Source of the DNA: a virus
Length of the DNA stretch: 32,470 nt
Reading direction: 5' to 3' (one strand)
IMG/VR virus record: IMGVR_UViG_3300048904_000202
Coordinates: 132,007 to 164,476 of that record
The translations under genes were made by a program, and so were the position numbers. A model generated the notes under the pieces. It did no database searches. It was given only the letters and a program-made list of their open reading frames with translations, and had not been told where the DNA came from. This document shows, piece by piece, positions 2,737 to 13,164 of the stretch; position 1 is the stretch's first letter, and every line of letters begins with the position of its first letter.

Positions 2737-3207
2737 ATGACCACCAAAAAAGCTCAAAAGGCCGCTGAAATCGCGGAAGCGATAGAATCGCTGCGCAAGC
2801 TGATCAAGCCGGGCGACACGATTTATTGCGTCCTGCGGTCGCGCTCCTCGTCGGGCATGTCGCGGGTTATCGACCTGCTTATTCCCTATCGGGAAGTCAT
2901 TACCGAATATCCGCCACTCCCGGCCGATAAGGCGGAATATCCGGGACAACGCGATTACAACGCAAAGCCCAAAACCAAAGCGGGCAAGCTCCGTATTCGC
3001 TCGATCGGCTGGACCGCTTCGAAAGCTATGGAGCGGACTCACGACTCGGATAAGGGAGGTATTTCCATCGCTGGTTGTGGGATGGATATGGGCTTTGCCC
3101 TCGTTTACGATCTGGGGCGTACGCTTTACCCGAAGGGCGCGAAGGGAAGCGCCCTCAGGGAAGGACAGAAAGACGGCGGGTACGCTTTCAAACACGAATG
3201 GCTTTGA
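2737..3207 (+). CDS. Conserved phage protein with SSSGMSR and GCGMDMGF motifs, 156 aa
   Basis: After a helical N-terminus (TTKKAQKAAEIAEAIESLRK) the protein carries SRSSSGMSRVIDLLI at about residues 33-47 and ISIAGCGMDMGFALVYDLGR at about 109-128. This motif pair is one I recall from hypothetical proteins of many phages and plasmids; its biochemical role is not known to me. The ATG lies 3 bases after the preceding stop and a terminator follows, so it is the last and largest gene of cassette 2. Confidence 0.85.
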   Translation: MTTKKAQKAAEIAEAIESLRKLIKPGDTIYCVLRSRSSSGMSRVIDLLIPYREVITEYPPLPADKAEYPGQRDYNAKPKTKAGKLRIRSIGWTASKAMERTHDSDKGGISIAGCGMDMGFALVYDLGRTLYPKGAKGSALREGQKDGGYAFKHEWL

Positions 3208-3210
3208 CTG

Positions 3211-3237
3211 GGAGGGCTACGGCCCTCCTTTTCTTTT
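3211..3237 (+). terminator. Intrinsic terminator ending cassette 2
   Basis: GGAGGGC at 3211-3217 pairs with GCCCTCC at 3222-3228 across a TACG loop, followed by TTTTCTTTT. Confidence 0.9.
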
Positions 3238-3251
3238 GCGCAGAACTCTTC

Positions 3252-3361
3252 GTTAAGGTTAACCGCCGGCCGGAAACCGTTAACCGTCTATCTCGTGGAA
3301 TATTGCTTGACCCGACTCGTGGACTCGGTCTAGACCCTGATTCGCAATTGGGAGACGCAAC
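3252..3361 (+). promoter_or_regulatory. Cassette 3 leader: boxes and promoter, hairpin degraded
   Basis: Box 1 is inverted here (GTTAAGGTTAAC, 3252-3263), with GTTAACC 27 bp on at 3279. CTCGTGGAA is at 3292, -35 TTGACC at 3307-3312, a second CTCGTGGAC inside the spacer at 3316-3324, and -10 TAGACC at 3331-3336. The loop remnant GATTCGC is kept but the stem no longer pairs, and the -10 to GGGAG distance is 19 instead of 29. GGGAG is at 3350, ATG 3362. Confidence 0.75.
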
Positions 3362-9115: not shown

Positions 9116-9393
9116 GCGTCAAGACCTGCATCATCGCCGAGCATGACATTGCCTGCCAGCAGCTTCGCCGAGAACTCGCGATCGGACCGGCCGGTGCATC
9201 ACTCGTCCACGCCAACCCTTACTTCCACGTCCTGACGCCGGGCGAGATGCCGTGTGCCGTCATGTACGATGAGGTGATAATCTTCGAGAGCGTGGACGAG
9301 AAGATTGCAACCTGCCCGCGCCACGAGGACTGGTTCGAGACTTGCATCCGCACCCGGATGACGCGAGACGCCCAGATCGTGATCGTCAAATGA
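9112..9393 (+). CDS. Phage protein, 93 aa, probable paralogue of the preceding gene
   Basis: The GTG overlaps the preceding TGA (GTGA). The protein reads MSVKTCIIAEHDIACQQLRR, then CAVMYDEVIIFESVDEKIAT and HEDWFETCIRTRMTRDAQIV. Both proteins have a first strand with C-I/V-x-A, a helix, a middle strand ending in a VLV/VII-type core, and a closing W-(I/F)-E-x-x-x-R-x-R...(K/Q)-I-(I/V) strand. The function is unknown. It sits in a coupled row phoH-142aa-93aa-zinc ribbon. Confidence 0.75.
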   Translation: MSVKTCIIAEHDIACQQLRRELAIGPAGASLVHANPYFHVLTPGEMPCAVMYDEVIIFESVDEKIATCPRHEDWFETCIRTRMTRDAQIVIVK

Positions 9394-9605
9394 ACGATCC
9401 TTGCCGCATCGTGGAGATCAAGGAAGTCTCGGCTAAGTGCTGTCCGTTCTGCGGCCGACAAGACATCCGCACGTTGCGGACCAAGGAAAACATGTGGGCT
9501 ACGATCTGCTACCCGTTCGAGGACGGTTGCGGTGCCCGCACCGATTACCATTTCAGTGCTTGGTCATCACGCGCCGCGTGGGACCGCCGGGTGGACCCTA
9601 CTTGA
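9390..9605 (+). CDS. Lar-like zinc-ribbon protein, 71 aa
   Basis: CCPFCGRQDI at about residues 16-25, then C...DGCGARTDYHFSAWSSRA and AWDRR. A CPxCG knuckle, a second CxxxxxCGA knuckle and a final A-W-(D/N)-R-R helix are the signature of Lar-type restriction-alleviation proteins and related phage zinc ribbons. Lar of the Rac prophage modulates type I restriction; that this copy does so is inference. The ATG overlaps the previous stop. Its TGA (9603-9605) overlaps the -35 of the next promoter. Confidence 0.8.
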   Translation: MNDPCRIVEIKEVSAKCCPFCGRQDIRTLRTKENMWATICYPFEDGCGARTDYHFSAWSSRAAWDRRVDPT

Positions 9606-9639
9606 CATATTCCAGAACCTGTGTTAGTTTAACTGACAC
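9602..9639 (+). promoter_or_regulatory. Late-type promoter with a palindrome over the -10
   Basis: TTGACA at 9602-9607, a 17-bp spacer and TAGTTT at 9625-9630. The -10 lies inside GTGTTAGTTTAACTGACAC (9621-9639), two 9-base arms around a central T with one G-T mismatch. The -35 overlaps the stop of the zinc-ribbon gene. A similar inverted repeat spans the promoter at 25623, and a shorter one the promoter at 31728. Confidence 0.7.
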
Positions 9640-10067
9640 TGGTATCTGACCGAGATGGGGCTGGCGCGTAGTCGGCCTTCCATCTTGTGGACGAGACGAC
9701 AGGGTTGATGGATGGCAGCGGCTTCTTTGGTCGGTTGCCGCATCGTCCGTAGAGGAGTCGGTTCGGGCGTTCGTCCGCACGGCTCGGTCTCCAAACCTCC
9801 TTGCGTTCATGAACGGCATCACGGCCTGATCCGGTATTCGGACTGCCTGACCTTCGAGTGAGGTCACGAAGGGCGGTCCACCCCAAGGGAGCCTAGGGCA
9901 CAGGCGAAAGCCCCTGTCCGGTCGAAGCTCCCGCCCCATTCTTTCTGTCCAGCGCCCGTCATTGCGCCTCCTTCCCGGCTTATGCCCTTGTGCCGGGGGA
10001 CACGAACAAGGGCCGTCTCCCTAACCTGCCCGGCTGCGCGTCTCCATCCGCGCGCCGGGCACTTTTT
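9640..10067 (+). ncRNA. Candidate structured non-coding RNA or very long leader, about 430 nt
   Basis: No gene is visible between the zinc ribbon and the portal. The stretch starts at a promoter and ends in an intrinsic terminator. Hairpins follow one another: AGATGG/CCATCT (9653-9685), GCGGC/GCCGC (9718-9741), GAGTCG/CGGCTC enclosing CGGGC-GTTC-GTCCG (9755-9785), CGTTC/GAACG (9803-9814), TCCG/CGGA (9830-9841), competing CCTTCG/CGAAGG and TGACC/GGTCA pairings (about 9848-9872), ACAGG/CCTGT (about 9900-9917) and GCCCTTGT/ACAAGGGC (9984-10013). It matches no RNA family I recognise; a regulatory RNA or a leader controlling portal expression are both possible. Confidence 0.4.
10027..10067 (+). 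terminator. Strong intrinsic terminator just before the portal gene
   Basis: TGCCCGGC at 10027-10034 and GCGCG at 10036-10040 pair with CGCGC at 10049-10053 and GCCGGGCA at 10054-10061: 13 pairs with one bulged T. C and TTTTT follow at 10062-10067. It would end a transcript starting at 9602, or allow regulated read-through into the virion genes. Confidence 0.85.
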
Positions 10068-10082
10068 ACGGACATCCTTCCC

Positions 10083-11894
10083 TTGGCCTCCGCCCCGCCC
10101 GAAAAGATCACCAAGAAGCAGGCCAAGTCATATCAGGCGCGGCAGGCGGCCTACGCGGCCAAGCGTTCCAAGCAACAGCTTGCCGATCTCATGCCGGCGT
10201 TCGTCAACTGGGACTATACCAACTGGCGCGACATCTGGCGCTCGATCCGACACGCGATGATCGGTGAAGTCGCCATCAAGCAGCAGGGCAAAATGTACCT
10301 GCCGCAGCCCGAGGGGATGGATGACGGCCAGTACGCCGCCTATCTCGATCGCGCCGTCTTCTACAACATGGTCTATCGCACGGTCACCGGACTCACCGGT
10401 GCCATCTTCCGTCGCGATCCGCGCCTCCTCAAAGCCAGCACGAACCTGACGGCTCTCACCAAGCGCGTTTCGAAGGACGGCCTCTCCCTCAATATCTTCG
10501 CCAAGGTCGTGGCGCAGGAAATGCTCTCGGTCGGCCGCTTCGGCATTCTGGCCGACAAGGCGGCATCCGACAGCCTCACGGCCAAGCCGTACCTCGCGGG
10601 ATATACCTGCGAGAACATCTTGGACTGGACGTGGACCGAGATCGACGGCCGCAACGAGTACGATTACATCTTGCTGCGCGAGTTCATCATGGACCGCCGC
10701 ATGTGGATCGCCGAGGGGAAGCAACTCGTCTCGAACCCGAGCTACGGTCAGCTTTTCTGCGCGTACCGCTGCCTTCGCCTGATCTACAACCCGGAGTTCG
10801 ATCGCTGGGAGTACATTCAGGAATATTACACCCGTGGCAACGAAGACGCGGACCTGACGGAAGACCCGGAGATCACGCAGCCGCTGATCTTTGGCGTGCC
10901 GATGAATCGCATCCCGTTCAGCTTCTTCAACGCGACGACCAACCTTGGCGACATCGAGAAGCCGCCGGTCCTCGACATCCTGTCGCTGAACCTTTCCCAC
11001 TACAAGACATATGCTCAGCTTGAGCATGGTCGCTTCTACACCGCGAACCCGGTCTACTGGGTGTCGGGGTCACAGGAAGACGACGAGTATCTGATCGGTC
11101 CATCAGTCGTCTGGGAAATTGGAACCAACGAAAAAGCAGGCCTCATCGAGTTTAATGGGCAGGGGCTCAAGTCGCTCGAAATCGCGCTCTCCACCAAGGA
11201 GACACAGGTCGCATCACTCGGCGGCCGGCTCATCGGCGACGCGGCAACTGCCGGTCAGTCCGACAATCAGATCAAGCTCAAGGATCGCAACGAACAGTCG
11301 CTGCTCCTCAACGTCACCACCGTCATCAACGAGAATTTCACGTTCCTGCTCGGCATCTTGGCTCAGTGGATGAACGAGAATACGGACGGTCTGGAGTTTC
11401 GGGTCAATCAGGACTTTCTCCTCGATGGCGCAGCAGCCCGCGAGTTCCGCGCCGTGGCGCAGATGTACGCGGACGGCATGGTACCGATCGAAATCTTCTA
11501 CGAGTATTTCCTCAAGAACGAGGTGATCCCCGATTACGTCGATCTGGAAACCTTCAAGAATCTCCTCGAAGACGCCAATCAGTTCCCGAACGATCCGGAC
11601 TTCGAAGCTCGCGTCGAAGGGTACAAGGACGCCGCTTCGAAGGTTTCCTCGGAGACCCAGATCAAGGTGGCCGAGATCACTGCCGGCGCGGCGACCGATG
11701 TGGCGGAAGCCAATAACGACACCAAGGTCGAGTTGCAGGAATCGCAGCAGCAGCACGACGCGCAGCAGAACGCCCAGCAGCGCAAGACGGACGAGAAGGT
11801 CGCCAAGAATCAGCCTCGGATTCCTCCGGTACCGACGCAAGGGCGACAGGCTCTCCAGCGCGATGCCACCAAGCCGGCCGGCGGGACCAAATAA
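10083..11894 (+). CDS. Portal protein (DUF4055 type), about 603 aa
   Basis: The N-terminal part (NWDYTNWRDIWRSIRHAMIG, then YLPQPEG and FYNMVYRTVTGLTGAIFRRD) is typical of DUF4055 phage portal proteins, which form the dodecameric DNA gate at the capsid vertex. The C-terminus is Gln- and Lys-rich (ESQQQHDAQQNAQQRK) and probably disordered. The frame is open from GTG 9990, but that start lies inside a hairpin stem and the extension reads through the terminator at 10027-10067, so TTG 10083 is proposed. ATG 10192 is another option; none has a good ribosome site. Its TAA overlaps the next ATG. Confidence 0.9.
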   Translation: MASAPPEKITKKQAKSYQARQAAYAAKRSKQQLADLMPAFVNWDYTNWRDIWRSIRHAMIGEVAIKQQGKMYLPQPEGMDDGQYAAYLDRAVFYNMVYRTVTGLTGAIFRRDPRLLKASTNLTALTKRVSKDGLSLNIFAKVVAQEMLSVGRFGILADKAASDSLTAKPYLAGYTCENILDWTWTEIDGRNEYDYILLREFIMDRRMWIAEGKQLVSNPSYGQLFCAYRCLRLIYNPEFDRWEYIQEYYTRGNEDADLTEDPEITQPLIFGVPMNRIPFSFFNATTNLGDIEKPPVLDILSLNLSHYKTYAQLEHGRFYTANPVYWVSGSQEDDEYLIGPSVVWEIGTNEKAGLIEFNGQGLKSLEIALSTKETQVASLGGRLIGDAATAGQSDNQIKLKDRNEQSLLLNVTTVINENFTFLLGILAQWMNENTDGLEFRVNQDFLLDGAAAREFRAVAQMYADGMVPIEIFYEYFLKNEVIPDYVDLETFKNLLEDANQFPNDPDFEARVEGYKDAASKVSSETQIKVAEITAGAATDVAEANNDTKVELQESQQQHDAQQNAQQRKTDEKVAKNQPRIPPVPTQGRQALQRDATKPAGGTK

Positions 11895-12089: not shown

Positions 12090-12136
12090 GTTAAGGTTAA
12101 TTTTCCCTTGACTTCCACGAGATGGTCCAGTATGAT
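12090..12136 (+). promoter_or_regulatory. Promoter ahead of the scaffold and capsid genes
   Basis: TTGACT at 12108-12113, a 17-bp spacer and TATGAT at 12131-12136, the closest match to a sigma70 consensus in the window. A GTTAAGGTTAA box (12090-12100), identical to the early cassette boxes, lies 8 bp before the -35. Early and late controls may therefore share a DNA-binding protein here. Confidence 0.75.
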
Positions 12137-12150
12137 TTACGCCATCTTTG

Positions 12151-12347
12151 ATCTGATAGAGGTTTAGCCGGGGTCCGGCTTATCTACCCTGTCGATCCAT
12201 CCCAAAATCAGATGTTGGCCCACCTTGTAGGGCAACGACGCTCCGGGGGAGCGGTCTAACAGAATCCCCCACCCGAGATTTCGGACACCTCCGACGTGTC
12301 CAGAATGAAATCCTCCGGAGGGTCCGGAGGTAACGCATGTCTGCGTT
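12151..12347 (+). promoter_or_regulatory. Highly structured leader of the scaffold mRNA
   Basis: Between promoter and scaffold start are: ATCTGAT (12151) pairing with ATCAGAT (12207) around AGCCGG-GGT-CCGGCT (12166-12180); a GCCC/GGGC hairpin near 12218-12233; CGCTCC-GGG-GGAGCG (12239-12253); GGACAC/GTGTCC (12283-12301); CTCCGGA-GGG-TCCGGAG (12313-12329); and AACGCA-TGTC-TGCGTT (12332-12347) with TT after it. No ORF is seen. The last hairpin plus T-run could act as an attenuator. Confidence 0.55.
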
Positions 12348-12378
12348 TTCTCCAGTCCCTCGGTGAGGAACTTCAATA

Positions 12379-13164
12379 ATGCCAATCATCAATTTCGACT
12401 CTCTTGAGCAGGTCCCCGAGGGGCTTCGCGAGGGTGCCAAGCCCGACGACCAGACCGGCAAGTACGTGGTCAACGTCGTGCTGAACAGCAAGCTGGACGA
12501 GTTCCGCGAACGTAACGTGGAGCAGGCCAAGAAGCTGGAAAAGCTGGAACCGCAAGTTCAGCGTCTCACGTCGATCGTGGGTGAAGACCCGGCCGCGTTC
12601 GAGAACGAACTGACCCAGCTTCGCGATATCCACAAGCGCGTCAATGATGGCGAGTTGAAGACCAACGACCAGATCGAGCAGGCCGTGCAGGATCGCGTCA
12701 AGGCGGTCAAGGACGGCTACGAAGAGACCAACAAGGCAGCGCGCAACGAGGCTCAGACCTTCAAGCAGCGCGCCGAGACGCTCCAGCAGAAGCTGGATCG
12801 CACGCGCATCGACAAGGAAGTCACTTCCGCTGTCATCCAGCCGGATAGCGGCGTCCGTCCCGAAGCACTCCCGGACGTTCTGGAGCGCGCCTACCGCCTG
12901 TTCAAGGTCGAGGATGAGAAGATCATCCCGAAGCAGGGCGAGGCGACGGTCTTCGGATCGAACGGCGCGGACCCGATGACGCCCAGCGAATGGCTGGTCA
13001 AGCTGCGTACCGAGGCTCCCCATTACTTCAAGGGGAACAACGGCGGCGGCGCGGCCGGCGGAGCGGACAAGATTGGCGGGTTCACCCGCAAGGAAGTCGC
13101 CGGACTGTCGGCGGCTCAGAAGCTCGCTCTGGCGAACGATCCCGCGACGGGCGGCAAGCGCTAA
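12379..13164 (+). CDS. Capsid scaffolding protein, 261 aa
   Basis: A long charged helix with coiled-coil character runs from about residue 35 to 150 (LDEFRERNVEQAKKLEKLE, ARNEAQTFKQRAETLQQKLD). A glycine-rich linker (about 218-230) and a short basic C-terminal helix (GFTRKEVAGLSAAQKLALAN) follow. Scaffolds of HK97-fold capsids look like this: helical rod plus a capsid-binding C-terminus. Position between portal and major capsid protein agrees. The ATG follows GAGGAA by 8 bases. No protease is visible, so scaffold removal may not need one encoded here. Confidence 0.85.
   Translation: MPIINFDSLEQVPEGLREGAKPDDQTGKYVVNVVLNSKLDEFRERNVEQAKKLEKLEPQVQRLTSIVGEDPAAFENELTQLRDIHKRVNDGELKTNDQIEQAVQDRVKAVKDGYEETNKAARNEAQTFKQRAETLQQKLDRTRIDKEVTSAVIQPDSGVRPEALPDVLERAYRLFKVEDEKIIPKQGEATVFGSNGADPMTPSEWLVKLRTEAPHYFKGNNGGGAAGGADKIGGFTRKEVAGLSAAQKLALANDPATGGKR

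Follow-up and report, generated by a model that had tools for sequence, protein, structure and literature searches.

The window analysed here, a 32,470-nt stretch at the end of a viral record of 164,476 bases, very probably encodes a real, conserved and previously undescribed structured RNA, which we call RNA1. RNA1 (9637-10067, + strand; about 430 nt) extends from a promoter to an intrinsic terminator ahead of the portal gene, and it is recognised by syntenic homologues in 11 other distinct phages, by a covariance model of its core and by base-pair statistics, with no match in Rfam. The initial annotation had proposed an independent non-coding RNA at this place. Homologues and compensatory changes bear out a structured RNA of about 430 nt between promoter and terminator, but its independence is only half borne out, since the same RNA appears to be the untranslated leader of the portal gene. 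At about even confidence, and judging from sequence, we read RNA1 as the terminated leader RNA of the structural operon, perhaps with an activity in trans, rather than as a purely independent RNA. It probably controls the timing or the amount of phage head building.

RNA1 represents a family of structured RNAs that Rfam lacks. It occurs in large phages related to Sphingobium phage Lacusarx, which include phages of Sphingomonadales (Sphingobium and Erythrobacter) and related metagenomic phages, ahead of the gene for the portal through which DNA enters the capsid. Given that it heads the structural operon, the question arises of whether a folded leader RNA controls, through termination, the supply of portal protein, a dose-critical step of head assembly.

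Genomic context and distribution of RNA1

The RNA1 span is flanked on its 5' side by a PhoH-like gene with trailing small ORFs and on its 3' side by the portal gene, and the same gene order surrounds it in Lacusarx and L02. Named relatives were obtained from portal searches and comprised Erythrobacter phages XM05 and vB_EliS-L02 (L02), Sphingobium phage Lacusarx and Citromicrobium phage RXM; about eight distinct metagenomic lineages were found in addition, and a third scan added no new lineage. The order of promoter, non-coding RNA, terminator and portal is kept in the 11 other distinct relatives, and in all relatives but RXM a non-coding stretch of about 310-500 nt is followed by a terminator. 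In two close relatives, L020 and L033, the upstream genes differ and the unit of RNA1 and portal is the same. Direct DNA similarity of the RNA1 span to phage records was not detected.

The span 9602-10067 had been annotated as gene-free, and the search for a conserved ORF in its about 430 nt found none. None of the ORFs of the window's span has a counterpart in the relatives, and the ORF matches seen among close relatives, which occur in several frames, are what DNA conservation alone would produce. The longest antisense ORF of the span (113 aa) had no match in phages. A hidden ORF was rejected on these grounds. Upstream of the RNA1 promoter lies a small zinc-ribbon-like ORF (9342-9605), whose stop codon (9603-9605) overlaps the -35 box; it has a weak match to a Lar-like restriction-alleviation protein (PHROG_599, E 2e-4).

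Two relatives depart from the common layout. Ahead of its portal gene, RXM (L005, about 2685-2920) retains the promoter together with two hairpins of the leader, but it lacks the RNA1 core and carries no U-tract after the last hairpin; on its sequence, we take it to be a natural loss variant of RNA1. In L019 (about 2900-3000), just the 3' end of RNA1 adjoins the portal gene, the 5' part being swapped for unrelated, apparently coding sequence, and the breakpoint reflects either a chimeric contig or recombination. The core gave no convincing match in phages of Rhodobacteraceae, Mesorhizobium, Caulobacter and Microcystis or in RXM. Among bacterial genomes, 61 exact matches to a 17-mer core pattern were found, which is near the chance number for a collection of this size, and 0 of them had the core. 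Pattern matches in eight viral contigs (L079, L083, L086, L087, L090, L091, L092 and L095) lay in coding-like or unrelated sequence and were rejected.

Conserved core of RNA1

The initial annotation had counted at least eight hairpins between promoter and terminator. Many hairpins are indeed present, but their density is not above chance in G+C-rich DNA. The folding energy has a z value of -2.04 for 9638-10067 and of -0.46 without the terminator. Since this energy is weakly unusual, the evidence for RNA1 comes from comparison and not from the number of hairpins.

Ten relatives define a core of 90 nt with two adjacent elements, the first a stem on which a hairpin is stacked, with a bulge on the 3' side, the second made up of a stem, a small hairpin and, between them, an internal loop GGUA/NNUCGAA. 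The core of these ten was aligned by sequence alone with MAFFT (alignment A3). The covariation score of A3 lay above that of every shuffle (0/500); pairs changed on both sides numbered 4 against 2.2 in shuffles (41/500), which is not exceptional. A covariance model, R1, was built from A3, without Lacusarx and the window, and it matched the left-out Lacusarx blind with an E of 3e-8. When Lacusarx was added (11 sequences), two-sided changes were found at 9 of the 25 core pairs, compared with 2.7 in shuffles (0/500), and sliding the partners by 1-3 columns destroyed this signal. Addition of the window (12 sequences) raised the number to 11 of 25 against 3.3 in shuffles (0/500), in an alignment that was fitted to the model and is therefore biased in favour of structure. 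Judging by these pair changes, the base-paired core is shown to be under selection. That the structure is unselected or arose by chance is scarcely credible: the unremarkable folding energy and the divergence of the window would agree with it, but the two-sided changes, the blind match to Lacusarx, and a promoter and terminator kept in place speak against it.

With default filters, R1 did not find the window. Unfiltered, its best match in the 32 kb was 9840-9941 on the + strand, which covers all 90 positions at 12.3 bits; its E is 0.19 when the window is taken as the search space and 0.003 when the 509-nt gap is. A second model that includes Lacusarx, R2, gave the window 16.3 bits (E 0.03) as its top match, the runner-up reaching 11.7 bits; in other DNA, about 750 kb in all, two chance matches reached 15.6 bits or more. 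The match is convincing because it lies within the 437 nt where the core is expected and on the right strand, its score itself being modest. Plain sequence comparison of the window with single relatives gave weak signals (Lacusarx, the best, 4/300 shuffles; sum over relatives, 10/300). The window has the promoter, both core elements, the terminator and the portal gene in the order of the family, and by these features it is a divergent member of the RNA1 family. The covariance-model search that had been suggested at the outset recovered core homologues, and compensatory changes are present among them.

In the window, element 1 (9840-9879, +) was located by the R1/R2 match and pair counts and consists of the GGACUGCC/GGCGGUCC stem, a stacked UGACC/GGUCA hairpin and the 3' bulge CGAAG. 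The two competing pairings noticed earlier at 9848-9872, UGACC/GGUCA and CCUUCG/CGAAGG, are both present, and comparison with the relatives backs UGACC/GGUCA, inside the outer stem. Element 2 (9887-9932, +) reads GGGAGC-CUA-[GGGCA..UGUCC]-GGUCGAA-GCUCCC; its internal loop UA/UCGAA is conserved and its stem covaries.

Outside the core, the window shares further features with relatives. A hairpin with a conserved UUGGUC loop, GCGGC-UUCU-UUGGUC-GGUU-GCCGC (9718-9741, +), has a stem that covaries between relatives. A conserved GAGAC block (9692-9696, +) was identified by alignment, and GUCUC at 10015-10019 is its possible long-range partner; the pairing is unproven because the blocks hardly vary. 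The two-part stem that had been noted at 9755-9785 (+) was recovered by folding, and its GGCGUUCGUCC hairpin is common to L021. A probable H-type pseudoknot (9974-10013, +), read from the sequence and the Lacusarx alignment, combines CCCGGC/GCCGGG (9974-9979/9992-9997) with pairing of the loop GCCCUUGU (9984-9991) to ACAAGGGC (10006-10013), and Lacusarx has a readable but shorter counterpart. A variable 5' hairpin (9652-9686, +) was predicted by folding; in Lacusarx, RXM, L006, L015 and L021, the corresponding position carries hairpins or long stems of unrelated sequence.

Promoter of RNA1

The TTGACA promoter proposed at the left end of the span was confirmed at 9602-9630 (+), with the -35 box TTGACA at 9602-9607, a 17-nt spacer and the -10 box TAGTTT at 9625-9630; transcription is expected to start near 9637. 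Position and form are kept in 13/13 sequences compared, RXM included, each of which has a perfect TTGACA with a 17- or 18-nt spacer before the portal gene. The pattern TTGACA-N16-18-TAGNTT matches once in the 164-kb record, at the RNA1 promoter. By comparison, the element is shown to be a conserved promoter of sigma-70 type. A simple signal scanner missed both this promoter and the terminator. An imperfect palindrome, TGTGTTAGTTTAACTGACACT, lies across the -10 region (9620-9640) and is a possible operator.

An extended element, ATTTTNNCTTGAC, is common to the RNA1 and scaffold-leader promoters of Lacusarx, XM05 and L02; the RNA1 promoter of the window is without this extension. Each of these genomes (L002, L003 and L004 records, W01-W03) has 4-10 matches to the pattern ATTTTNNCTTGAC-N18-21-TA, distributed over both strands, with 0 matches for a reversed-pattern control, and the pattern is a candidate phage-wide promoter class.

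Thirty distant relatives, whose portal identity is about 37-45%, were also compared. TTGAC was present at most 250 nt upstream of the portal match in 29 of them, against 23% of background windows, and TTGAC together with a -10-like sequence at proper spacing in 9, against 2.8% of control windows. None of the 30 had the RNA1 core. The promoter before the portal gene seems older than RNA1, which lies between the two in the Lacusarx-like lineage.

Terminator and start of the portal gene

The right end of the span had been assigned a 13-bp intrinsic terminator with T5, and this is present at 10027-10067 (+). Its stem, TGCCCGGC-U-GCGCG / CGCGC-GCCGGGCA (10027-10061), has 8+5 bp with one bulged U and is followed by C and T5 to 10067. 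A terminator occurs here in 12/12 members other than RXM; the stem sequences are very different between relatives, with pairing still kept, and the tracts are T4-T5, some of them set off from the stem (L004, L009). The span does lie before the portal gene as described, but the listed ORF start (GTG, 9990) was not correct, alignment placing the true start at the TTG at 10083. The portal gene (10083-11894, +; PHROG_145, E 7e-103, and alignments) thus has a UUG start 15 nt after the T-run. The corresponding distance is 9-17 nt in 12/12 members with a terminator, and therefore there is no room for another promoter. Given this, and the -35-like element before the portal gene of distant relatives, RNA1 is regarded as the untranslated leader of portal as well.

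Transcripts begun at the RNA1 promoter would end at the terminator after about 430 nt, and only those that read through it would serve as portal mRNA. The folded RNA1 may set or time this read-through, through an action on RNA polymerase or through a phage or host factor that it binds, and the released RNA may play a further role. A leader with a terminator to be passed is favoured because the terminator abuts the portal start, the promoter site seems older, and the ATTTTNNCTTGAC element is shared. Passage of the terminator may come from leakiness, from a protein antiterminator or from an action on polymerase like that of put (PMC9378689); a role in trans of the released RNA is a further candidate. 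Three observations stand against the leader reading: the 5' arm of the terminator showed no alternative upstream partner beyond chance, RNA1 is larger than a leaky terminator needs, and the window's core score (12.3-16.3 bits) is modest and rests partly on position. It is rather unlikely, though conceivable, that RNA1 is a new class, an RNA-only antiterminator or an assembly-sensing leader, in which the emerging transcript, by modifying the host's RNA polymerase or by binding a protein of capsid assembly, lets transcription continue past the terminator into the portal gene and structural operon.

Other readings assign the terminator a different part. As a possible but less favoured account, RNA1 would be an independent trans-acting RNA whose 3' end is set by the terminator, portal being reached by incidental read-through. 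Its own promoter and terminator, its large fold with conserved loops that resemble binding sites (UUGGUC; GGUA/UCGAA), and a length and layout like those of other orphan phage RNAs agree with this. However, every real core match in the searched records directly precedes the portal gene and none was found elsewhere, RXM retains promoter and leader without core or U-tract, and no separate portal promoter fits. A purely passive arrangement, in which portal, present at 12 copies per virion, is kept below scaffold and capsid by a leaky terminator and the fold has no role, is unlikely; it would suit the short and sometimes offset T-tracts and the separate promoter of scaffold and capsid, which lies before scaffold, but it leaves the selected base pairs and the conserved core loops unexplained. 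A classical attenuator or riboswitch, whose terminator and antiterminator exclude each other, might be expected from a site before a terminator that adjoins a start codon. Yet no alternative upstream partner for the 5' arm of the terminator rose above shuffles in any of the 12 members, so that a simple attenuator switch is unsupported and we consider it very unlikely.

Comparison with known RNAs

The initial annotation had recognised no known RNA family, and Rfam 15 agreed: at gathering and relaxed thresholds there was no match in the window or in the loci of eight relatives, the GOLLD/ROOL and phi29 pRNA models included, and the best sub-threshold matches in the span were at chance level (12.7 bits against 46.6 and 50 needed). 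Passages found in the literature on Lacusarx, L02 and CtrA-regulated phages describe promoters and terminators, and name no such RNA.

At the late promoter of phage lambda, PR', a short untranslated RNA (6S) ends at an intrinsic terminator (tR'), and the structural genes are reached via read-through. The arrangement at RNA1 resembles this constitutive short RNA followed by antitermination at phage late promoters, with the geometry of promoter, untranslated RNA, terminator and structural genes found in 12/12 members. In contrast to the lambda leader, RNA1 is a large, covarying, conserved fold and its terminator almost touches the portal start; the likeness seen here is one of geometry. The put RNA of HK022 (about 70 nt) forms two stem-loops, binds the beta' zinc-binding domain and suppresses termination, acting on early transcripts (PMC9378689). 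Like put, RNA1 would be a nascent phage RNA downstream of a promoter, and its core also has two adjacent stem-loop elements with internal loops; at 300-500 nt, however, RNA1 is far longer, and the similarity lies in the two-element shape.

GOLLD and ROOL are large structured phage RNAs of unknown function, many GOLLD exceeding 800 nt, and both are often near tRNA islands (PMC12286853). RNA1 is likewise a large structured phage RNA, but it has 300-500 nt, precedes the portal gene, and lies in a window without any tRNA. Since RNA1 adjoins the portal gene and so, like phi29 pRNA, comes from a packaging-related locus, a packaging RNA working with portal and motor was also considered. This is extremely unlikely: Rfam gave no match, RXM has no core, and these phages have terminase genes with no sign of an RNA-dependent motor, ordinary small and large terminase genes being reported for L02 (PMC9127768).

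Scaffold leader RNA2

A second conserved structured leader, RNA2 (12108-12383 of the window), follows a promoter, TTGACT-N17-TATGAT, and precedes the scaffold gene. It occurs in 12 phages, including RXM in a shortened version, and had no match in Rfam. RNA2 suggests that RNA leaders may be a general control layer of the structural operon. Its parts are a hairpin with a GGGGUCC loop, the hairpin CCUCYGGGAGGGUCCCGGAGG, and CCUCGGUGAGGA directly 5' of the start codon; in a further hairpin, GGYUCCGGGGGARCC, the G-run stands opposite a conserved UCCCCC, a possible pseudoknot. Within 12137-12379, CCUCGG can pair with one of two partners, the neighbouring GAGG, which belongs to the likely ribosome-binding site, or a CCGGGG close to the 5' end, and this alternative pairing is a possible translational switch for the scaffold protein. 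A minimal RNA2, the GGGGUCC-loop hairpin with CCUCGGUGAGGAGG before the ATG, is present in the distant Microcystis phage Mwe-JY26 (L204, about 3195-3265).
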